Of a stretch of 40,448 bases of DNA, positions 6,824 through 36,498 are shown piece by piece; position 1 is the first letter of the stretch, and the number at the start of each line of letters is the position of its first letter. The DNA is taken from NCBI GenBank assembly GCA_026418035.1, contig JAOACC010000021.1, positions 1 to 40,448 on the forward strand. The letters run 5' to 3'. This DNA is from a bacterium. Its GTDB lineage: Bacteria; DUMJ01. Position numbers and translations under genes: made by a program. Under the pieces are notes generated by a model. The model was given only the letters and a program-made list of their open reading frames with translations. It ran no database searches and was not told the DNA's origin.

Positions 6824-7381
6824 TTATTTTTTCCTTAATCGTTCTATAAATTGATTAAGTCTATCCTTGAATGATTTTACGTAGTAGTATGGATTTAGGG
6901 GTTTCCCCTGCATCCAACCTTGGATAACCTTTTCCATATCTTTATCTATCTCTCGGGGAGGTCGATTCTGAGGAAAACCTTGTCCTCCCTGAGATTGATT
7001 TTGTTGCTGTTGCTGTCTCAGCTGTTTAAACCTTTCCTGTCTCTCTATCTGGATTTTATCTATAAATGTAAGCTGAGCATCAGTGAGAATCCCCTCTATC
7101 TTATCAATAAACTTTTCTGCCTCTTTAGATGGAAGACTTTCCTTTTTCATCAAATCTTGTAATACAGGGATTAATTTTTTGGCTTGGTCTTTTGATAAGG
7201 CTAGTTTTTTATCCTTTTCTAATTCATTCAAGTCTTGGATAAGCCTAAGTAGATATTGTAACTCTTTATTATCACCAAATATCCTTCTAGGTGGACCCTC
7301 CTGTTGCTGGGCATAAGAAAGTGGGATGAAAAATAGAGTTGCTAGAAGAATTATACCTATAAGCCTTAGATTCTTTATCAT
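6824..7381 (-). CDS. Small secreted helical protein, end of MacAB-like operon
   Basis: Not recognised as a named family. Residues 1-25 form a signal peptide (hydrophobic run ending SYAQQQ). The mature protein (about 160 aa) is predicted helical with many charged residues, a Gln-rich stretch near residues 120-132 and a 'LTDAQLTFIDKIQ' segment. The length, helical character and 'LT..Q' pattern recall Spy/CpxP-like periplasmic proteins, but that is only a resemblance. The ribosome site GGAGGGAG overlaps the stop of the upstream permease, so it is co-translated with the export system and may be an accessory or sensor for it. Confidence 0.7.
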   Translation of the reverse strand: MIKNLRLIGIILLATLFFIPLSYAQQQEGPPRRIFGDNKELQYLLRLIQDLNELEKDKKLALSKDQAKKLIPVLQDLMKKESLPSKEAEKFIDKIEGILTDAQLTFIDKIQIERQERFKQLRQQQQQNQSQGGQGFPQNRPPREIDKDMEKVIQGWMQGKPLNPYYYVKSFKDRLNQFIERLRKK

Positions 7382-25921: not shown

Positions 25922-27493
25922 ATGAATAATATTGAACTAAACGAACAATTTAAGAGAGCCATATATTTGATGGAGAATACAGACAAGAATTTATTCATTA
26001 CTGGTAAAGCCGGAACGGGAAAGTCTACCCTTCTAAATTATTTCCGTTCTATAACTAAGAAAAATATCGTTGTCCTAGCTCCCACTGGTGTCTCTGCATT
26101 AAATGTTGAAGGAGAAACTATTCATTCCTTTTTTGGCTTTAAGCCAAATATAACTATACAAAATATAAGTAAACTTTCCTCCAAAAAGAGAAAGCTTTAT
26201 GAGAAGTTAGACACCATTGTAATTGACGAAATATCAATGGTTAGGGCAGACCTCTTAGATTGCATTGATTACTTCCTCCGATTAAACGGAAGAGAAAAAG
26301 GGGAACCTTTTGGTGGAGTACAGATGATATTTATAGGAGACTTATATCAGCTTCCCCCTGTAGTTACCTCAAAAGAGAAGAGGTTCTTCACTGAAAGATA
26401 CAAGAGTCAATACTTCTTTGATGCAGATGTATTTAAAGAGATATCTTTGGAATTTATAGAACTAGAAAAGGTATACAGACAGAAGGATGAGAGATTTATT
26501 AAACTTCTGAATGAGATTAGAAATAACACTATAACTGAGGAGAGTCTGAATATCTTAAATAGTAGAGTTGGGATAAACCCTCCTTCAGACTCTGATTATG
26601 TAGTCTATCTTACTCCTCTAAATGAGACGGTAGATAAGATTAATAGTGAAAAACTGGATAAACTTAGAGGGAAATTATACACCTGGGAGGCTTATATAGA
26701 GGGAGACTTTGAGGAAGGCTCATACCCTGCAGATGTGATACTTCAGATAAAAATAGGTGCCCAAGTAATGATGTTAAACAATGATTCTAGGGGAAGATGG
26801 GTGAATGGTTCTATAGGAAAGGTCGTTGGTGTAAGGTCTGGTAAAGGCATCGAGGATGATACTATTGAGGTTCAATTTCCAAATGGAGATATAGAGGATG
26901 TGTTACCCCATACCTGGGAGATATTCCACTATAGGTATAATGAAAAGACACAGATGATAGAGACAGAGGAGATAGGTTCATTTACACAGTATCCAATGAA
27001 ACTTGCCTGGGCGGTTACTATTCATAAGAGTCAGGGTAAGACGTTTGATAAAGTTATTATAGACCTAGGAAGAGGGGTTTTTACCCCTGGACAGGTCTAT
27101 GTTGCATTAAGTAGGTGTACGTCTTTTGAAGGGATCTTTCTTAAAAAACCGATAAAGAAGTCACATATCCTTTTAGATAGGCGTATTGTAGAGTTTCTTA
27201 CTAAGTTTCAGTACCAATTATCTGAAGAAAAAATTCCTCTAGAAGAGAAGATAAGTATAATCAAAAAAGCCATAGAGGAAAAAGCAAACCTGTTTATAAC
27301 TTACTTAAAACCCAATGATGAAAAATCTAAAAGAGTTATAAAACCCTGTGAAATAGGTGAATTCTATTACAATGGTAAGATGTTCCTTGGTGTAGCTGGT
27401 TATTGTTATAGCAGGAAAGAAAATAGGACCTTTAGAATAGATAGGATCTTGGATTTAAAAATAATTGAAGGAGGTGTTCAAGATAAAGACTAA
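25922..27493 (+). CDS. Pif1-like DNA helicase with C-terminal WYL domain
   Basis: 523 aa. Superfamily 1 helicase core: Walker A GKAGTGKST (28-36), 'APTGVSALNVEGETIHSFFG', Walker B 'IVIDEISMV', 'QMIFIGDLYQLPPV', 'VYRQ', and motifs V/VI 'AWAVTIHKSQGKTFDKV' and 'YVALSRCTS'. These match the Pif1/RecD2-like 5'-3' group. The last 65 residues ('LFITYLKPN', 'RVIKPCEIGEFYYNGKMFLG', 'ENRTFRIDRI') fit a WYL domain, a ligand/nucleic-acid-sensing module. The ribosome site is weak. It overlaps the next gene by about 29 bp and heads an operon of metabolic genes, an odd association. Confidence 0.88.
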   Translation: MNNIELNEQFKRAIYLMENTDKNLFITGKAGTGKSTLLNYFRSITKKNIVVLAPTGVSALNVEGETIHSFFGFKPNITIQNISKLSSKKRKLYEKLDTIVIDEISMVRADLLDCIDYFLRLNGREKGEPFGGVQMIFIGDLYQLPPVVTSKEKRFFTERYKSQYFFDADVFKEISLEFIELEKVYRQKDERFIKLLNEIRNNTITEESLNILNSRVGINPPSDSDYVVYLTPLNETVDKINSEKLDKLRGKLYTWEAYIEGDFEEGSYPADVILQIKIGAQVMMLNNDSRGRWVNGSIGKVVGVRSGKGIEDDTIEVQFPNGDIEDVLPHTWEIFHYRYNEKTQMIETEEIGSFTQYPMKLAWAVTIHKSQGKTFDKVIIDLGRGVFTPGQVYVALSRCTSFEGIFLKKPIKKSHILLDRRIVEFLTKFQYQLSEEKIPLEEKISIIKKAIEEKANLFITYLKPNDEKSKRVIKPCEIGEFYYNGKMFLGVAGYCYSRKENRTFRIDRILDLKIIEGGVQDKD

Positions 27494-28718
27494 GATTCTT
27501 ATAATATTATCGGTTTATCACTTAGCTCTTATTGTAATTGGTTTCTTTTTATCACCAATAGAAGAGATAAGAATTGGTCTTTTAAACATCCTTAAGTCTC
27601 CAAGTATACTTGTAACTGACTATATAGCCATAGGGGGATTGGGAGCTACCTTTATAAATGCTGGACTTGTAGGCATTGCTGGAATAGTTGTTGCATCCCT
27701 TAGTGGTGTTAAGATTTCAGGTTTAGTTATTGCTGGAGTCTTTACTATGTCTGGTTTTGCTATGTTTGGGAAAAACATATTTAATATCTGGCCCATTATA
27801 TTTGGTGTTTGTCTCTTTTCTAAGCTTACCAAAAGACCGCTGAAAAATTATATTGCTCCTTGTCTCTTTGGAACAACATTGGCACCTACGGTGAGCCAGA
27901 CAGCCTTTGGCTTTGGCTTTGGTATTTTATGGGGGATAGTAGCGGGTATCATTATGGGTATGCTTGTATCTGCACTTGCCAAACATGTCTATAGCTTACA
28001 CCAGGGCTATAATCTATACAATGTTGGAACTACAGGTGGAATTGTAGGGACTATTTATTATATAATGCTGAAGGGCTTTGGTTTTAAGATATCTCCAGTT
28101 ATGCACTGGAGTAGAGAGCATACTGGACTATTATTCCCTATACTACTTACATTTTTTCTCTCCTTCATCATACTTGGTTTATTTCTAGATAGAGATATCA
28201 AGGGTTTAAAGAAGATAATAAAAGAGAGTGGTAGACTTATAACCGATTTTGTGGAAGTTGGGGGATTAGGGAGTGTTCTTATAAATATGGGTATATTGGG
28301 AATTCTGGGCTTGTTATATATTAAGTTTATAGGTGGAGATATAAATGGTCCTGTGATAGCTGGAATCTTTACTATTGTTGGTTTTGGTGCATTAGGAAAG
28401 CATATAAAAAACGTATTGCCTATAATGTTGGGGGTTTACCTTATCTGTATCCCTAAGGTTTGGTTACACTCAGACCCAGGCCCAACATTGGCTGCACTAT
28501 TTGGAACAACACTAGCTCCTTTTAGTGGAAGATTCGGTCCCTTTATTGGTTTACTTGCAGGTATGCTTCATCTTCCAATGGTAATGCATGTGGGAGAGAT
28601 GCATGGTTATATGAATCTCTATAATAATGGGTTTTCTGGAGGACTTGTGGCTATAATTATAGTAGCCATATTAAGGGATTTAAAGCCACATCTTATAGAA
28701 GAGGAGATAAGATACTAA
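27465..28718 (+). CDS. DUF1576 multi-pass membrane protein, candidate sugar-acid transporter
   Basis: About 417 aa, around ten hydrophobic spans, function unknown. The protein is an internal duplication: 'GGLGATFINAGLVGIAG' in half 1 matches 'GGLGSVLINMGILGILG' in half 2, 'LFGTTLAP' occurs in both, and 'GYNLYNVGTTGGIVG' pairs with 'GYMNLYNNGFSGGLVA'. Inverted or tandem duplicated halves are typical of transporters. It overlaps the helicase gene and abuts the LarA homologue by 1 bp. The start is uncertain: TTG 27465 or GTG 27474 are conventional, but the strong GAAGGAGGT at 27467-27475 would best serve ATA 27483. Transport of a sugar acid is inferred from neighbours only. Confidence 0.78.
   Translation: MKEVFKIKTKILIILSVYHLALIVIGFFLSPIEEIRIGLLNILKSPSILVTDYIAIGGLGATFINAGLVGIAGIVVASLSGVKISGLVIAGVFTMSGFAMFGKNIFNIWPIIFGVCLFSKLTKRPLKNYIAPCLFGTTLAPTVSQTAFGFGFGILWGIVAGIIMGMLVSALAKHVYSLHQGYNLYNVGTTGGIVGTIYYIMLKGFGFKISPVMHWSREHTGLLFPILLTFFLSFIILGLFLDRDIKGLKKIIKESGRLITDFVEVGGLGSVLINMGILGILGLLYIKFIGGDINGPVIAGIFTIVGFGALGKHIKNVLPIMLGVYLICIPKVWLHSDPGPTLAALFGTTLAPFSGRFGPFIGLLAGMLHLPMVMHVGEMHGYMNLYNNGFSGGLVAIIIVAILRDLKPHLIEEEIRY
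27467..27475 (+). promoter_or_regulatory. Ribosome site inside the helicase 3' end
   Basis: GAAGGAGGT lies within the last codons of the helicase gene. It is too close for GTG 27474 and lies downstream of TTG 27465. With normal spacing it would serve ATA 27483. Confidence 0.45.
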
Positions 28719-29953
28719 TGGAGATACCGAGATTAGTAAAAGTAAGACAATTCTTTAATAGAGAACATATAGAAGATATTGAGGGTAGGGTAAGGGAAGA
28801 GATCTTTAAGTTAGGACTCTCTATAAAACCCGGTTCGGAGATAGCTATTGCGGTTGGTAGCAGGGGGATAAGGAATATCGATAGGATTGTAAAAACGACT
28901 GTAGATGTAGTAAAAGAATTTGGAGGAAAACCATTTATTGTTCCAGCTATGGGGAGTCACGGTGGAGCTACCGCGGAGGGACAGAAGAAACTACTAGAAG
29001 GTTATGGTATTAGAGAAGACCTAATTGGTGCTCCTATCAAATCTTCTCTGGAAGTTGTAGAGCTACCATCCGATGGGTTGGAGAATAGAGTATTTATAGA
29101 TAAGATAGCGTATTCTGCAGATGGGACTATCATAATAAATCGAATAAAACCACATACGGATTTTCATAGTGATGTAGAGAGCGGTTTACTAAAGATGTGT
29201 GTAATAGGTCTAGGAAAACATAAACAGGCTATAGAGATACACAGATTTGGGACATACGGATTGAGACATCTTATTCCGCCAACTGCAGAGAGAATCATAC
29301 AGTATGGGAATATCATTTTTGGTATTGGTATAGTGGAGAATGCGTATGATGAGACAATGATAATAGAAGCTGTAGAGCCTAAGGACTTTGAAGAGACAGA
29401 TAAGAGGCTTCTTAAGATAGCAAGAGAAAATATGCCTGCTCTCCCTGTAGATAGGTTAGACGTCTTAATAGTTGATGAGATGGGTAAAGATATTAGTGGA
29501 GCAGGGATGGATACCAATATCATAGGTAGGATATACATAGATGGAGAACCGGAGCCTGAAAGACCTAAGATTACTAGAATCGTTGTTACCGACCTTACGG
29601 AAAAGACCCATGGAAATGCTATAGGTATGGGCCTTGCGGATTTTATTACCAAGAGACTCTTTAGTAAGATAGACTTTGATGCTACATATCAGAATGCAGT
29701 TACAAGCACATTTGTCCTTAGAGGTAAGGTACCAATCATTACTAAGGATTCTAGAACTGCTATAGAATGGGCTTTAAGAACCTGTGGACCTATAGAGATT
29801 GAAAGAGCCAAGATTATAAGGATAAAGAATACCTTGAGCCTAAGTGAGCTATACGTATCAGAAAGTGTTTTAGCAGAGATAAAAGACAGAGTGGAGGTAA
29901 TTGGTGATTTTGTAGATATATGTGATGAAAGCGGAGAACTAATACCATTCTAG
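28718..29953 (+). CDS. LarA-family (nickel-pincer type) 2-hydroxyacid racemase/epimerase homologue
   Basis: 411 aa, cytoplasmic, resembling the DUF2088/LarA superfamily, whose studied members racemise or epimerise 2-hydroxyacids with a nickel-pincer nucleotide cofactor. Likely cofactor/catalytic positions by motif: H84 in 'GSHGGAT', H146 in 'INRIKPHTDF', K159 in 'GLLKMCVIGLGKH' and H175 in 'IEIHRFG'. They are spaced roughly like LarA H108, H174, K184 and H200, but this is my alignment by eye. Its neighbours (acid-sugar kinase and PdxA2-type dehydrogenase) suggest a four-carbon aldonate as substrate. larB/larC/larE cofactor genes are not in this window. Confidence 0.8.
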   Translation: MEIPRLVKVRQFFNREHIEDIEGRVREEIFKLGLSIKPGSEIAIAVGSRGIRNIDRIVKTTVDVVKEFGGKPFIVPAMGSHGGATAEGQKKLLEGYGIREDLIGAPIKSSLEVVELPSDGLENRVFIDKIAYSADGTIIINRIKPHTDFHSDVESGLLKMCVIGLGKHKQAIEIHRFGTYGLRHLIPPTAERIIQYGNIIFGIGIVENAYDETMIIEAVEPKDFEETDKRLLKIARENMPALPVDRLDVLIVDEMGKDISGAGMDTNIIGRIYIDGEPEPERPKITRIVVTDLTEKTHGNAIGMGLADFITKRLFSKIDFDATYQNAVTSTFVLRGKVPIITKDSRTAIEWALRTCGPIEIERAKIIRIKNTLSLSELYVSESVLAEIKDRVEVIGDFVDICDESGELIPF

Positions 29954-29962
29954 GAGGTCAAT

Positions 29963-30160
29963 ATGCGAGAATGTAATGTCAATAAGAATCTAAAGAGATG
30001 CACCTGCTCCTATGAGCCCTGTTCTAGAAAAGGCATATGCTGTGAGTGTATTGCTTATCATAGGAGTCATGGAGAATTACCAGCATGCTATTTCCCTGAT
30101 GATGTAGAAAGGACGTATGACCGTTCTATTACTAGATTTATTTCTCTATACAAGGCTTGA
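29963..30160 (+). CDS. Small Cys-rich protein (DUF6485-like)
   Basis: 65 aa with eight Cys in the first 42 residues (C4, C13, C15, C20, C26, C27, C29, C42). It is probably metal-binding, zinc or iron-sulfur. The '[20 protein letters not shown]' segment matches what I remember as DUF6485, a family without known function. GGAGGT nine bases upstream sets the start, and the kinase gene follows after 3 bp. Its placement beside a nickel-type enzyme homologue makes a role in metal handling possible but unproved. Confidence 0.75.
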
Positions 30161-30163
30161 GAG

Positions 30164-31411
30164 ATGCCTAAAATTCTTGTAATTGCTGACGATTTAACCG
30201 GGGCTCTCGATACTGGGGTTCAGTTCTCTAAATGTGGCTTTTTAACAAGGGTAGAGATAAAGGTGGTATTTTTAGAGGATGGGGTAGATGTTACTATATT
30301 TGATAGTGAAACTAGACACTTAAGCTCAGAGGATGCCTATTATACAGTTTTACTCTTTACAAAATTTTTTAAGTGTAAAGAAATCTTTAGTGATTTAGAG
30401 TATATCTACAAGAAGACAGATTCAACTTTAAGAGGAAATATCGGGATGGAGTTTAAAGCTATTTTGGACAATTTTAATTCTCCAATCTTTTTTGTCCCGG
30501 CATATCCAGAACAGGGAAGAACTACCAAGAATGGGATTCAGTATGTTGATGGAATACCTATAGCAGAGAGTGTATTCGCCAAAGACCCATTAAATCCCAT
30601 TAAGACTAGTTTCATACCAGATATCATAAGAGAGCAGGCTGATATACAGACATTTGTAGTTACTAAAGATAAGTATGAGAGTGTATTAGATAGCAAATTA
30701 GAACTTGGGGTATATATATTTGATGCAGAAGCTAGAGAAGATTTAGAAACGATAGGCAAATTATTGAAAGAGAGAGATCTCCTTCACTACACTGCAGGCT
30801 GTGCAGGATTTGCAGAGACCCTAACTAAACTTATAGACTATAAAGGTGTAAAGACCTTACCAGAAATCCAGTTAGAAGCCCATCCTCTTATTGTAATCTG
30901 TGGGAGCATAAACGAGAGGTCATTGAAGCAGATAGAGTATATAAAAAAGAGAAGGAAGGTCTTAGATGTAATCCTTACTCCAGAGGTAGTATTTAAGAAG
31001 AAGAGATTCTTTTTGAGTAACTCTAGCCTTAAAGGTTGCGACATAGTAGTTATAAGAACAGCAGAGAAGACATCTGATGTAAAGATATACGAAGAATATG
31101 CAAAGGCAAACTCGATCAACTTGGAAGATTTGCCTTTGATGGTAGCAAAGAGGTTAGGTGATATAGGTTATAGACTTTTAAGAAGATTAAGGGAAAAAAC
31201 GAATACCTTAGTTGTATTTGGTGGGGATACACTGCTAGCTTTGACTGACAGAATGGGCATAAGATATCTTTTCCCTCTTTTAGAGATAGACAGAGGAACA
31301 GTAGTATCTAGTATGGAGGACCTATTCTTTATCTCAAAGGCTGGTGGTTTTGGAGAGGAAGATGTGATAGAGAAGATATTAAATCTCATAGAAAGCAGAA
31401 ATCATAGGTGA
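30164..31411 (+). CDS. Four-carbon acid sugar kinase (DUF1537, OtnK/DtnK-like)
   Basis: 415 aa. The N-terminal 'ADDLTGALDTG' (from residue 8) is the signature of the family that phosphorylates D-threonate, D-erythronate or related 3-oxo-tetronates. 'YKKTDSTLRGNIG' and the C-terminal 'VFGGDTL' and 'GGFGEEDVI' nucleotide-binding segments are also present. The product would be a 4-phospho acid, the substrate type of the PdxA2-like enzyme encoded next. The two genes are a standard pair in tetronate catabolism, which ends in dihydroxyacetone phosphate. Confidence 0.9.
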   Translation: MPKILVIADDLTGALDTGVQFSKCGFLTRVEIKVVFLEDGVDVTIFDSETRHLSSEDAYYTVLLFTKFFKCKEIFSDLEYIYKKTDSTLRGNIGMEFKAILDNFNSPIFFVPAYPEQGRTTKNGIQYVDGIPIAESVFAKDPLNPIKTSFIPDIIREQADIQTFVVTKDKYESVLDSKLELGVYIFDAEAREDLETIGKLLKERDLLHYTAGCAGFAETLTKLIDYKGVKTLPEIQLEAHPLIVICGSINERSLKQIEYIKKRRKVLDVILTPEVVFKKKRFFLSNSSLKGCDIVVIRTAEKTSDVKIYEEYAKANSINLEDLPLMVAKRLGDIGYRLLRRLREKTNTLVVFGGDTLLALTDRMGIRYLFPLLEIDRGTVVSSMEDLFFISKAGGFGEEDVIEKILNLIESRNHR

Positions 31412-31417
31412 TGTAAG

Positions 31418-32395
31418 ATGCTTATAGGCGTTACTATGGGAGATGCAAACGGGGTTGGTCCTGAGATAATACTTAAGAGTTTTGCTAATGGTGCTCTTAA
31501 GGAGAGATTCATTGTCATTGGCGATTATGATATCCTCCTATTTGCCAATGAGCTCCTTGGATATAATGTGCCAATAAAAAGGCTAGGTTCTCCTACCGAT
31601 GTAGATACAAGTTATCTAAATGTGTTAGACCTAGGAATAATGGGTAGAGATGATCTAACTATAGGCAAAATCTCAGAAAAAGCTGGATATGCCTCTATAA
31701 TGTATGTAGAAAAAGCGGTAAAGATGTCTCTAGAAGGGATGTTAGATGGAATAGTTACCCTCCCTATAAATAAAGAGGCGGTTAGACTTACATTCCCTAA
31801 TTTTACTGGGCATACAGAGTTTATAGCAGAGCTATGTGGAGAGAAGGATTATACTATGATGCTTGCATCTGAAAAGTTGATAGTAACACATGTTTCTACC
31901 CATGTATCTCTAAGAGAAGCCATAGAGATGGTAAAAAAGGAGAATGTGTACAGAGTTATCCTACTTACCCACAGAACTATTTCAAGGTTTATAGATAATC
32001 CCAAAATAGCAGTATCAGGCTTAAATCCTCATGCGGGAGAACATTCCGCCTTTGGTGAAGAGGATGAAAAGGAGATAAAGCCTGCGGTAGAAAGGGCTAA
32101 GAGTGAAGGTATTAATGTGGAAGGTCCTATTCCTCCAGATACTGTCTTTTGGAAAGCCTATAATGGACTATACTCTGCGGTTGTCTGTATGTATCATGAT
32201 CAGGGACATATACCGGTAAAACTATTAGATTTTGAAGGTGGGATAAATATAACGATAGGGCTTAAAGTAGTAAGGACATCTGTTGACCATGGAACAGCAT
32301 ATGATATAGCATACAAGGGTATAGCTAGTACAAAGAGTTTTGAGAATGCCTTCAACTTTGCAGTAAAATTGATAGGTAAAAAAGGAGGTTTTTAA
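31418..32395 (+). CDS. PdxA2-type 4-phospho-tetronate dehydrogenase
   Basis: 325 aa, homologous to 4-hydroxythreonine-4-phosphate dehydrogenase. Metal-ligand histidines are in place: H132 ('FTGHTEF'), H205 ('NPHAGEH') and H260 ('MYHDQGHIP'). The N-terminal 'GVTMGDANGVGPEIILK' is typical. Next to a DUF1537 kinase the family usually oxidises and decarboxylates 4-phospho-D-threonate or -erythronate to dihydroxyacetone phosphate, rather than making pyridoxal phosphate. No other pdx genes are nearby. AGGAGG precedes the following gene within its last codons. Confidence 0.92.
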   Translation: MLIGVTMGDANGVGPEIILKSFANGALKERFIVIGDYDILLFANELLGYNVPIKRLGSPTDVDTSYLNVLDLGIMGRDDLTIGKISEKAGYASIMYVEKAVKMSLEGMLDGIVTLPINKEAVRLTFPNFTGHTEFIAELCGEKDYTMMLASEKLIVTHVSTHVSLREAIEMVKKENVYRVILLTHRTISRFIDNPKIAVSGLNPHAGEHSAFGEEDEKEIKPAVERAKSEGINVEGPIPPDTVFWKAYNGLYSAVVCMYHDQGHIPVKLLDFEGGINITIGLKVVRTSVDHGTAYDIAYKGIASTKSFENAFNFAVKLIGKKGGF

Positions 32396-32396
32396 A

Positions 32397-34649
32397 ATGG
32401 AAGAGAAATGGATACAAAAGAAGATCGAAGAAATATTATCTAAGATGACCTTAGAGGAGAAAATAGCACAACTTGGCTCTGTTCCATCGGGTAAATTGGT
32501 GGAGAATGGAAAGTTCTCTAGAGAGAAGGCTAGAGAGCTTTTAAAAAATGGGATTGGTCAGATAACCAGAGTAGCGGGATATGCTGAGAGAGATCCGGTA
32601 GAGTCTGTAGAGATTATAAATGAGATACAGAAGTTTCTTAAAGAAGAGACAAGACTAGGGATACCTGCAATAATACACGAGGAATGTCTCTCTGGTGTTA
32701 TGACTAAAGGTGCAACAACCTTTCCACAGGCTATAGGAATGGCTAGCACATTCGAGCCAGAAGACATTGAAAAGATGACCTCAATCATAAGAAAAGAGAT
32801 GAAAGCTTTTGGTGTTCACCAAGGTCTTTCTCCTGTTCTTGATATACCTAGAGATCCTAGATGGGGAAGGACAGAAGAGACTTTTGGAGAAGATCCATAT
32901 CTTGTGTCAAAAATGGCAGAGAGTTACATAAGAGGACTTCAAGGCGAAGACTGGAAAGAAGGTATAATTGCTACTGCAAAACACTTTACCGCCTATGGAA
33001 TTTCAGAAGGTGGTAGGAATCTAGGACCTGCTAGGGTATCTGAGAGAGAACTAAGAGAGGTCTTTTTATTCCCGTTTGAGGTTGCGGTAAGAAAGGCTGA
33101 TGTAGGCTCTCTAATGAATGCCTACCATGAGATAGATGGAATCCCCTGTGCATCTTCTAAGTTCTTACTAACTAAGATACTTAGAGAGGAGTGGGGATTT
33201 AAAGGCTTTGTAGTCTCAGATTATTCAGCGATAGAGATGTTACACACATTCCATAAGGTTGCTAAGGATCTAAAGACTGCAGCTATAAAAGCCTTAGAAG
33301 CGGGGATAGAGATAGAGTTGCCAGATATAAAATGCTATGGTGAACCTCTATTACAAGCAGTAAAGGAAGGGGCAATATCCGTATCTGTTATAGATACTGC
33401 AGTTGCTAGGGTTCTAAGGGCAAAGATACTCCTAGGATTGCTAGGGGATAATATCTATGCAGACCCAACTAAAATAAGAGATATCTTAGATAATCAAGAA
33501 CACAGAGCATTTGCTAGAGAACTTGCTAGAAAATCCATAGTTCTATTAAAGAACGATGGAGTTTTACCTTTGAGCAGAGAAGTAAAAACCATTGCCGTTA
33601 TAGGTCCAAATGCGAATAGCACTCAAGGTTTGCATGGAGACTACAGTTATACCTCACATATAGCAGGTGTAAAAGACGGAGTAAGGACAGTAACAGTCCT
33701 AGAAGGTATTAAGAATAAAGTATCTTCAGGAACTACCGTCCTCTATGCAAAAGGGTGTGAACTCAGCGGTGAATCGACAGATGGCTTTAATGAAGCTTTG
33801 GATATAGCAAGTAAATCTGATGTTATTATAGCTGTTATGGGAGAGAATAGCGGTCTATTCAAGAGAGGTATCTCTGGAGAAGGTAATGATAGGATAGATT
33901 TAAATCTACCTGGAGTCCAGAGAAAACTTTTAAAGGCTATAAAGGAACTTAATAAGCCAATAGTACTTGTTATTACTAATGGAAGGCCATTATCGATAAC
34001 TTGGGAGAAGGAAAATATACCAGCAATTATAGAGGCTTGGTATCCAGGAGAAGAGGGAGGAAACGCAATAGCGGATGTTATATTTGGAGATTATAACCCT
34101 GGAGGAAAACTTCCGGTATCATTTCCAAAAGATGTTGGCCAGATACCGGTTTACTATAATAGGAAGCCTTCAGCTTTTAGTGAGTATCTAACAACTGATA
34201 CTAAACCACTATTCCCCTTTGGACATGGATTAAGCTACACTACGTTTGAATATTCAGACTTAGAAGTAAGACCGGAGTCTATTTTACCTGGAGGATATGT
34301 TGATATAAGCTTTAGGATAAAAAATATAGGTAATATAGCTGGAGATGAGGTTGTTCAACTGTATATTCATGATGAATGGGCAAGCGTAGAGAGACCTGTA
34401 AAAGAACTAAAGGGATTTAAGAGGATTCATTTAGAACCACAAGAAGAGAAGAGGGTTACCTTTAGACTATTTGCAGACCAGTTAGCATTTTATGATGAAG
34501 CAATGAGGTTTATTGTAGAGTCTGGAACCTTTGAGGTTATGATTGGCTCTTCTTCAGAAGATATAAGGCTTGTAGGTAAATTTGAGATATCAGAGACAAA
34601 GGTTATAACGAAGGACAGAAGGTTTCATAGTGAGGTAACTGTAGAATAA
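32397..34649 (+). CDS. GH3 beta-glucosidase
   Basis: 750 aa, no signal peptide. The (beta/alpha)8 domain contains 'GLSPVLDIPRDPRWGRTEETFGEDP' and 'ATAKHFTAYG', with the nucleophile Asp at D275 in 'GFVVSDYSAIEM'. Next come the alpha/beta sandwich ('LLKNDGVLPL', 'IGPNA') and the C-terminal fibronectin III-like domain ('DEVVQLYIHDE', 'ELKGFKR'). This is the full bacterial GH3 plan for hydrolysis of beta-gluco- or beta-xylosides in the cytoplasm. It starts 1 bp after the dehydrogenase stop with AAAAGGAGG upstream, suggesting that it releases sugars feeding the same metabolism. Confidence 0.94.
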   Translation: MEEKWIQKKIEEILSKMTLEEKIAQLGSVPSGKLVENGKFSREKARELLKNGIGQITRVAGYAERDPVESVEIINEIQKFLKEETRLGIPAIIHEECLSGVMTKGATTFPQAIGMASTFEPEDIEKMTSIIRKEMKAFGVHQGLSPVLDIPRDPRWGRTEETFGEDPYLVSKMAESYIRGLQGEDWKEGIIATAKHFTAYGISEGGRNLGPARVSERELREVFLFPFEVAVRKADVGSLMNAYHEIDGIPCASSKFLLTKILREEWGFKGFVVSDYSAIEMLHTFHKVAKDLKTAAIKALEAGIEIELPDIKCYGEPLLQAVKEGAISVSVIDTAVARVLRAKILLGLLGDNIYADPTKIRDILDNQEHRAFARELARKSIVLLKNDGVLPLSREVKTIAVIGPNANSTQGLHGDYSYTSHIAGVKDGVRTVTVLEGIKNKVSSGTTVLYAKGCELSGESTDGFNEALDIASKSDVIIAVMGENSGLFKRGISGEGNDRIDLNLPGVQRKLLKAIKELNKPIVLVITNGRPLSITWEKENIPAIIEAWYPGEEGGNAIADVIFGDYNPGGKLPVSFPKDVGQIPVYYNRKPSAFSEYLTTDTKPLFPFGHGLSYTTFEYSDLEVRPESILPGGYVDISFRIKNIGNIAGDEVVQLYIHDEWASVERPVKELKGFKRIHLEPQEEKRVTFRLFADQLAFYDEAMRFIVESGTFEVMIGSSSEDIRLVGKFEISETKVITKDRRFHSEVTVE

Positions 34650-34755: not shown

Positions 34756-36498
34756 ATGGACAAGATTAGTGTAAGAATTATGTTAGTTGTTTTTATCTTA
34801 GTTCTGATTTTAACCCTTACTAGTATATTTGTATCGAATCCTTTAATATTAATCCCTTTAGCCCTTGTTCTTCTTGGTGTTTCTCTATTTGTTATTCAGA
34901 GTCTTCTGAAGCCCTTATCTAGCATCCTAGATGCTTATAAAGAGAAGGATGGAGCGATTAAAAAGTTTGAGGATTTTGCTGGCCTTATAGAGAGTATGTC
35001 TAGGGAGGGATTTAAGAGTTTTTTGCCAGAAGAAAAGGATAGCATAACTGGTAAGATTTCTTATGCCATTAATTCACTCTTAAAGAGTACAAATAATCTT
35101 ATAAGAGAGCTTGATTCATTCTCGGAGAGGATCCTTAATTCAAGTAGACAGTTGAACGATACTATCAGACAGACATCGGACACTATGGAAGAAGTCAATT
35201 CTGCACTTCAAAATCTTACTCAGGAGACAGATAAATTGAATCTTAATATTGAGGAGATAGCTCAGAGGAGTAAAGAGGTTGAATCTCTGGCTTATGAAGG
35301 AATCTCGAAGATAAATAGTATGACAGAACAGATGCGAGATATAGCCCAAGCCACAGGTCATACGATGGCTATGATTAATGAACTAGACAAAGCCTTTAAA
35401 GAAATAGAAAATGTGGTAAAGGTTATATCTAGCATAGCGGAGCAGACAAATCTTCTGGCGTTAAATGCAGCTATAGAGGCAGCCCGAGCTGGTGAACACG
35501 GTAGGGGTTTTGCTGTTGTAGCGGATGAGGTGAGACAGTTGGCATATCAGACTCAAGATTTTCTTGAAAAGATTAAGGTTATGATAGGTGAACTTTCGGA
35601 AAGGATGACAAATACAGTCAATACAATCTCTTCTAGTAATCAACAGGTAGAAAGAGGAGAAGTAATCTTACAAGAGGTGACTAATACATTCAAGATAATT
35701 ACTGATAACATAAAAGATATAACCGACAGGATTGAGAGAACCGCTGAGTCTAGTGGTGAGATAACTAGAGGTAGTAAGGATATAGCATCCGCTTCTGACC
35801 AACAGTTAAATGTAAATATGCAACTTGCAGATATGGCTAATAATTTGGCTGATATAGCTACAAAATTAAAAGATAGGTTAGCTGAAACGCAGATAGGGGC
35901 TCATAATCTAGAGATTGATATAGACAAATTTGACAGAGAATTCTCTAGTATTGACGAGATAAGAAAGAGAGCTCTTAAGAATGAGTTGAAGATTAACAAT
36001 GAGTTTGTTATAGGGGTTATAGCAAGGCTTGAACCTATAAAGGGTCATAAGTTCCTCTTTGAAAGTTTAAAGCTACTTCTTCCTAAATATAGGAATCTTT
36101 TGTGTCTTGTAGTTGGCGATGGTTCTTTAGAGAAAGAACTAAAGCAGATTGTGGCTAAAGAAGGTCTTTCAGATAGGATTCGTTTCCTTGGATATAGGAG
36201 TGATATACCTAGGCTTCTCAGTATAATGGATTTAGTTACTCTTACCTCTGAAAAAGAGGGAGTTCCTCCAAGGATTATATGTGAGGCATTAGCTGGTAAG
36301 AAACCTGTGGTAGCTACCAATACTACCGGAGCCAGATATCTAGTTCAGGATGGTATAAATGGTAAACTTGTTAACTATGGTGATGTCAGGGCATTAGCAG
36401 AGGCAATAGAATTTTTTGTCAAGAATCCAGAGAAGTGTAGAGAATTTGGAATAAATGGAAGGAATATTATAGAAGGCTTAATAAGAGGAAAGAACTAG
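34756..36498 (+). CDS. Chemoreceptor (MCP) signalling domain fused to a GT4 glycosyltransferase C-terminal domain
   Basis: 580 aa. Two adjoining TMs (about 8-50) have almost no external loop and no clear HAMP. A long coiled coil (about 100-375) carries the MCP hairpin tip '[20 protein letters not shown]' near residue 235, the CheA/CheW contact site. At residue about 384 the sequence changes to '[10 protein letters not shown]', like the 'HNGID..KF' linker of GT4 enzymes. It continues as the complete second Rossmann domain: '[15 protein letters not shown]', '[12 protein letters not shown]', '[15 protein letters not shown]', '[20 protein letters not shown]', 'DGINGKLV'. The GT acceptor-binding half is absent. 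A nucleotide-sugar-sensing receptor is my inference. GGAGGAG at 34741-34747 sets the start. Confidence 0.85.

Follow-up and report, generated by a model that had tools for sequence, protein, structure and literature searches.

A string of five closely spaced genes

We analysed a contig of 40,448 nucleotides, referred to here as the window (NCBI GenBank assembly GCA_026418035.1, contig JAOACC010000021.1), from a bacterium of the GTDB lineage DUMJ01. Between positions 27,465 and 32,395 it carries five genes that include a LarA-superfamily isomerase, a DUF1537 kinase and a PdxA-family dehydrogenase. These three recur together in several phyla, and we consider below the proposal that they form a catabolic unit for four-carbon sugar acids.

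The first gene (27,465–28,718) encodes a DUF1576 membrane protein, which is matched by PF07613 (367 bits) in two stretches that correspond to internal repeats. It is followed on the same, forward strand by an isomerase of LarA group 22 (28,718–29,953; NF052515, 533.7 bits with a cut-off of 400), hereafter LarA22, and by a 65-amino-acid Cys-rich DUF6485 protein (29,963–30,160; PF20095, 40.3 bits with a cut-off of 24). The last two genes encode a member of the DUF1537 four-carbon acid sugar kinase family (30,164–31,411; PF07005, 153 bits, and PF17042, 49 bits, both over cut-off) and a dehydrogenase of the PdxA family, catabolic (PdxA2) type (31,418–32,395; PF04166, 336 bits; TIGR00557, 346 bits with a cut-off of 290). 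No Pfam family matches LarA22 at E ≤ 0.001; its family assignment rests on NF052515.

The successive junctions consist of a 1-base overlap followed by gaps of 9, 3 and 6 bp. The initial annotation of the window had described five genes with gaps of 0 to 10 bp, and the co-directional arrangement with gaps of −1 to 9 bp bears this out. Three genomes of the phylum, all in one genus, make up the own-lineage set used throughout. The same gene order is kept in the second genome of the genus (locus L181), and the DUF1576-LarA-DUF6485-DUF1537 part is present in the third (L003).

Recurrence of LarA22 with DUF1537 and PdxA

Relatives of LarA22 were collected in a contig scan, and the neighbourhoods of the best 80 of 554 confirmed relatives, picked with a window-like alignment, were examined with partner models for DUF1537 and PdxA that were seeded by the window proteins. 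Both partners are present at 19 of the 80 loci, and at least one is present at 23. Contig ends truncate some of the loci (L014, L039 and L050 among them); where at least 5 kb is available on both sides, 14 of 49 loci hold both DUF1537 and PdxA. Nearly all of the counted partner genes (41 of 42) lie on the strand of LarA, and 31 of the 42 are within 1.5 kb of it. Locus L051 is counted as a carrier of the trio with its PdxA on the opposite strand, and one of the 19 carriers (L012) belongs to the window's own genus.

The carriers span Bacillota, Actinomycetota, Armatimonadota and Bacteroidota, and include Bacillaceae, Paenibacillus, a Rubrobacter, and metagenome-assembled genomes of an Armatimonadaceae and a Bacteroidetes member. 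According to the NCBI annotation of a Rubrobacter plasmid, the kinase, pdxA and LarA genes are consecutive there. As controls, we examined 20 loci of LarA proteins found with a malate-racemase model (243 kb) and 40 DUF1576 loci (504 kb), and neither set contained DUF1537 or PdxA at any locus. The initial annotation had made a recurrent neighbourhood of DUF1576 with LarA, DUF1537 and PdxA2 a test of its proposal. The LarA22-DUF1537-PdxA part of this neighbourhood does recur across phyla, whereas DUF1576 and DUF6485 accompany the trio at none of 79 loci outside the genus.

In a tree of 85 rows, a supported clade (98/95) of 23 rows holds 17 of the trio carriers. The window falls in a separate clade of 14 rows (100/96) together with carrier L016, and carrier L051 is in neither clade. 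When carrier labels were shuffled over the labelled rows only, the label was not clustered, with 164 of 500 shuffles giving a value as low.

Two further settings were observed among the group-22 loci. On plasmids of Sulfitobacter and Pseudosulfitobacter (L007 and L008), LarA22 is flanked on one side by a gene of the altronate dehydratase family and on the other by larC, a setting suggesting that longer sugar acids may be the substrates in other branches of group 22. Five of the 19 trio carriers (L024, L027, L031, L052 and L063) carry, on the strand of LarA and at most 7 kb from it, an iron alcohol dehydrogenase gene together with an aldehyde dehydrogenase gene. Such enzymes would possibly suit a tetritol, tetrose, polyol or aldose as the source of the acid.

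Fold and active-site residues of LarA22

The predicted structure of LarA22 has a predicted local distance difference test (pLDDT) score of 95.2. Upon comparison with known structures, all 12 LarA-type entries of the Protein Data Bank (PDB) among the matches listed scored at Z 19.1–21.1, and the next match scored 5.8. The top LarA-type match is 9eid (Z 21.1, root-mean-square deviation (rmsd) 4.2, 326 aligned residues), and the protein is predicted to have the two-domain LarA fold. A sequence search of the PDB with LarA22 gave no significant relative, and its low-scoring rows are due to chance.

We aligned the LarA22 profile by hhalign with 24 LarA proteins that were found in Clostridia-class genomes with the malate-racemase model (E 1.4e-8); the places that match LarA residues in these 24 proteins are our own reading of the motifs. 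The alignment pairs R49, H81, H146, K159 and H175 of LarA22 with R75, H108, H174, K184 and H200 of LarA, and each of these five residues is the same in every one of 52 aligned proteins. Based on the roles given for the LarA residues (PMC7583248), R49, K159 and H175 match the cofactor-binding positions R75, K184 and H200, and H81 and H146 match the catalytic His pair H108 and H174. There are three additional residues between H146 and K159 in LarA22. The second catalytic His is followed by T147 in 52 of 52 proteins and by D148 in 40 of 52, both of which are polar. The corresponding two residues are usually F/F in lactate racemases and E/V in gluconate epimerases (PMC11770544).

The initial annotation had regarded this protein as a LarA homologue with plausible nickel-pincer residues. 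Its homology, its predicted fold and five of seven positions agree with that description; of the remaining two, LarA D72 has no equivalent and the match at K298 is ambiguous, and both are weighed below.

Genes for the nickel-pincer cofactor

LarC, LarE and LarB, for which the initial annotation had suggested a search, score over their cut-offs in each of the three genomes, and an objection based on missing cofactor genes is thereby ruled out. The LarB gene of genome G000 is divided between two contigs, and its better piece is over the cut-off by itself. In genome G002 a larE-larB-larC run is located on the same contig as the cluster, about 43 kb away.

Using the LarE, LarB and LarC proteins of the genus as queries, we found larE at 8, larB at 5 and larC at 4 of the 19 trio loci, and none of them at the 61 other loci. 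Two of the LarE proteins from trio loci were compared with TIGR00268 and score 369 and 375 bits (cut-off 150). All eight of the larE-bearing carriers are Bacillaceae and near kin, and so represent one lineage rather than eight independent events. The presence of larE, larB and larC in trio loci is the strongest evidence for use of the nickel cofactor by the trio. Two other genes that were suspected of encoding LarE from their position and length actually encode a Ku protein and a sugar phosphatase.

Besides LarA22, the genome encodes a single other LarA, which belongs to the group-18 'putative hexonate epimerase' type (611.7 bits), and the cofactor genes alone therefore do not prove that group 22 makes use of them. 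The group-18 gene is found at positions 7,163–8,461 of L184 (G000:C41), on a contig with frames that by eye resemble a glycyl radical enzyme and its activase. At L029, L030 and L031, homology to LarC extends over two adjacent frames. This arrangement presumably fits a larC that requires a ribosomal frameshift, as in known larC genes.

The dehydrogenase is not a vitamin B6 enzyme

Among the best solved relatives of the window PdxA is 6e85, a 'D-threonate 4-phosphate dehydrogenase' (260 bits), which scores well above 1ps6/1ps7 (177 bits). H132, H162, H205 and H260, which we take to be active-site residues, are conserved among eight PdxA proteins of the trio loci.

PdxA enzymes might also be expected in vitamin B6 synthesis, in which case the neighbouring genes would be incidental, and the window protein does exceed the cut-off of the pdxA model TIGR00557. 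However, its nearest relatives are PdxA2-like, pdxJ was found in none of the three genomes of the genus, and pdxS is present in two of the three (its absence from G000 may reflect incompleteness). This gene content argues that PdxA is not for vitamin B6, and we consider that role ruled out, with only a very slight chance left to it. Together with the two DUF1537 domains of the kinase, these results confirm the four-carbon acid sugar kinase and the PdxA2-type dehydrogenase named in the initial annotation.

DUF1576, DUF6485 and transport

The AlphaFold model of the DUF1576 protein has a pLDDT of 94.2 and a predicted template modelling score (pTM) of 0.93. In a VIA-align comparison, rows 1–37 are all Amt/Rh proteins or urea transporters (UT) at Z 13.2–10.4 and rmsd 4.2–6.6, followed by RnfD/NqrB at Z 7.3–9.1 and other rows at 3.7 or less; values of Z under about 13 can, as the tool warns, reflect an arrangement that is common in helical proteins. 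A Foldseek search with the model returned nothing at E ≤ 0.001 (the best E, 0.04, was to another family), and the window protein matches no Pfam family except DUF1576 at E ≤ 0.001, and thus neither Amt/Rh nor UT.

Each of the genus's three genomes has a single DUF1576 gene, which lies in this operon. Among the loci examined, DUF6485 matches were confined to this genus, namely to the window, L002, L003, L004 and L012. Elsewhere, DUF1576 is over its cut-off in 40 of 391 Clostridia-class genomes. We examined 40 DUF1576 loci, of which 39 came from the search of Clostridia-class genomes and one from that of LarA22-bearing genomes, and found LarA22, DUF1537 or PdxA beside DUF1576 at none of them. 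Two of 12 LarA22-bearing genomes that were checked have DUF1576, at another site in the genome. A role for DUF1576 or DUF6485 as a general part of the module is therefore ruled out.

Among the 19 trio carriers, and using transporter seeds that came from the carrier loci themselves, we found GntP transporters in eight, tripartite ATP-independent periplasmic (TRAP) transporters in five and an ATP-binding cassette (ABC) binding protein in one; four carriers show none of these. DUF1576 occupies the transporter slot in the window genus, where other trio loci have GntP or TRAP.

At the Clostridia-class DUF1576 loci (L141–L180), a gene encoding about 113 amino acids comes next on the same strand in 27 of 40 cases. 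The product of this gene at L167 has a HATPase_c/GHKL domain, and that at L144 has no Pfam match. The DUF1576 protein, with its predicted channel-like fold, and a GHKL-like partner may form a sensor pair in Clostridia.

The initial annotation had cast DUF1576 as the importer. Its place in the operon and its predicted channel-like fold are consistent with this role, but the gene is not part of the recurrent module, and the importer assignment therefore rests on those two features. It is quite possible, although we lean somewhat against it, that DUF1576 instead works as a channel or sensor with no connection to the sugar acid and that transport is encoded elsewhere. The Clostridia genes, which occur apart from the trio and in one case beside a confirmed GHKL-type ATPase domain, point in that direction, and an Amt/urea-channel fold, if correctly predicted, suggests small solutes. 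In contrast, the only DUF1576 gene of the genus lies in this operon in each of its three genomes and overlaps the LarA gene by 1 base in the window, in a unit whose counterparts in other carriers include an acid transporter.

A proposed tetronate pathway

We favour, as fairly likely, a reading in which the operon is a catabolic unit for four-carbon (tetronic) sugar acids that combines a nickel-pincer C2 epimerase with the kinase-PdxA2 route. The data above establish the identities of the genes, the predicted LarA fold, the pincer residues, the cofactor genes, the recurrence of the trio and the lack of a B6 role for PdxA; the reaction, the substrate, the order of steps and transport by DUF1576 we infer, as follows. 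The sugar acid would be imported by DUF1576 in this genus and by GntP, TRAP or ABC systems in other carriers. The group-22 LarA, with its nickel-pincer nucleotide, would invert the configuration at C2 via a 2-keto intermediate formed by hydride transfer, for example converting D-erythronate to D-threonate. The DUF1537 kinase would then phosphorylate C4, and PdxA2 would oxidize C3 with NAD to give a beta-keto acid, which would lose CO2 to yield dihydroxyacetone phosphate (DHAP).

D-erythronate and D-threonate differ at C2 only, which is the position inverted by LarA enzymes. LarA homologues epimerize 4-deoxy-threonate/erythronate at C2 (PMC11770544), and DUF1537 enzymes include both D-threonate and D-erythronate kinases (PMC10971088). 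With a C2 epimerase acting before the kinase and a C3 dehydrogenase, one kinase-PdxA2 pair could serve both acids without the LtnD and OtnI steps (PMC12540250).

Several observations weigh against this reading. LarA D72 has no counterpart in LarA22, the hhalign alignment having a gap of two residues at this point, and for this reason we do not file LarA22 under the LAR, SAR, MAR, HGR, PLR or GntE groups. In the global hhalign alignment no Lys is aligned at LarA K298, the invariant K257 being located about nine residues earlier; some LarA groups of unknown specificity lack residues such as H174 and K298 (PMC7583248). Neither partner is seen at 57 of the 80 group-22 loci, some of which are truncated, and an altronate-dehydratase-like gene is present at 7 of the 61 non-trio loci, which together indicate that group 22 probably does not carry out one single reaction. 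In addition, the operon of the window includes a glycoside hydrolase family 3 (GH3) gene that the proposed pathway does not account for.

Scores with the specific models also count against it. The best-scoring NCBIfam model for the window kinase is that of D-threonate kinase (NF047819), but the score of 186 bits is under the cut-off of 450, and 3-oxo-tetronate kinase (NF043035) gives 87.5 bits, under a cut-off of 350. Likewise, the window PdxA scores 293 bits with the D-threonate 4-phosphate dehydrogenase model NF002891, under its cut-off of 583. The identity of the substrate is consequently not fixed by these models. The same module might act on another acid, with LarA22 epimerizing a pentonate, a branched or 4-deoxy acid, or a phosphorylated tetronate, and the kinase and PdxA acting on that compound. 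The shortfall from the specific D-threonate models would accord with such a substrate, DUF1537 relatives do act on other acids, with some trio kinases matching a 3-oxo-isoapionate kinase model weakly, and the polar T147 and D148 would suit a hydroxylated substrate of any length. However, the nearest kinase model and the PdxA relative 6e85 both represent tetronate enzymes, and we judge a different acid to be rather unlikely.

Genes resembling lutABC, for lactate oxidation, adjoin the Rubrobacter operon and could favour lactate as the substrate. Database records also name relatives of LarA22 'nickel-dependent lactate racemase' or 'lactate racemase domain-containing protein', and LarA22 might on this basis be a racemase of lactate or a small 2-hydroxyacid that merely shares the operon. 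The Thr and the frequent Asp after the second His, in place of the F/F pair of lactate racemases (PMC11770544), and the recurrent association with a sugar-acid kinase and PdxA make this improbable.

We therefore retain tetronate catabolism as the preferred reading. A bolder form of it is more tentative, and we hold it to be possible but doubtful: that group-22 epimerases, which lack D72 and perhaps K298, form a class that links threonate and erythronate catabolism to the kinase-PdxA2 route, and that DUF1576, with its predicted Amt/urea-channel fold, was recruited as the importer.

Extent of the unit and neighbouring genes

The GH3 gene (32,397–34,649, forward strand; PF00933, 288 bits; PF01915, 213 bits) begins 1 bp downstream of pdxA and is probably on the transcript of the five-gene string; a GH3 gene also adjoins in L012 and L181. 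Upstream, the 3' end of an open reading frame (ORF) for a PIF1-like helicase (25,922–27,493) overlaps the DUF1576 frame by 29 bp, which makes the true start of DUF1576 uncertain. Because of the closely following GH3 gene and the overlap with the helicase, the unit is probably longer than the five genes of the initial annotation. Promoter and terminator scans gave numbers of sites similar to those in shuffled sequences, and the transcript ends are thus not placed. An Rfam search of the window gave no match, and a tRNA search found none.

Beyond the GH3 gene, a single frame (34,756–36,498) encodes a methyl-accepting chemotaxis protein (MCP) signalling domain (PF00015, 151 bits) together with a group 1 glycosyltransferase (PF00534, 119 bits). 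This fusion is kept in the second genome of the genus (L181:2,848–4,587).

Relation to known systems and significance

Taken singly, the families of the kinase, of PdxA2 and of LarA group 22 are all known already. In catabolism by DtnK or DenK with PdxA2, as here, a DUF1537 kinase is found beside a catabolic PdxA and DHAP is the expected product (the kinases are named in PMC10971088). The present operon differs in the addition of a nickel-pincer LarA, often with larE, larB or larC in carriers, and its kinase and PdxA are below the specific cut-offs. The details of the D-threonate and D-erythronate kinase (DtnK/DenK) and PdxA2 pathway are reportedly given by Zhang (2016). The four-step L-threonate route (LtnD, OtnI, OtnK and OtnC) also ends in DHAP (PMC12540250). 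A Pfam search covering the five operon ORFs found no LtnD-, OtnI- or OtnC-type domain among them. OtnK is presumably a DUF1537-type kinase like the one described here. Where that route employs a dehydrogenase and a keto-isomerase, the change at C2 would here fall to a redox-neutral epimerase.

GntE, the D-gluconate 2-epimerase of LarA groups 19–20, is similarly a nickel-pincer LarA in a sugar-acid operon with polar residues after the second His (PMC7583248). In contrast, LarA22 shows 12% identity at Z 19.1 to 4nar, has no equivalent of D72, and has DUF1537 and PdxA as partners. The DUF1576 model aligns over nearly its full length with Amt/Rh and UT channels, at the Z scores of 10.4–13.2 noted above, but it differs from them in having no Pfam match to these families, identities of 6–13% and an anion as its proposed substrate.

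No member of group 22 is included in the set of 13 LarA homologues that PMC7583248 tested (Table 1), and this group is not named in the accessible text of PMC11770544. We found no paper joining the trio in the open-licence literature, although the association may already stand in Table S1 of PMC7583248, which lists contexts for each LarA group. A search of the open-licence literature on DUF1576 likewise found no paper, and the predicted structure would be the first structural lead for this family.

The association with the kinase and PdxA, and with larE, larB and larC in Bacillaceae, gives group 22 a concrete set of substrates that can be assayed as well as cultivable hosts, among them the trio carriers from Fredinandcohnia, Neobacillus and Oceanobacillus (L025, L032 and L023). 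If the proposed pathway is true, a nickel enzyme would be added to the catabolism of tetronates, acids that originate from polyols and when vitamin C is broken down.

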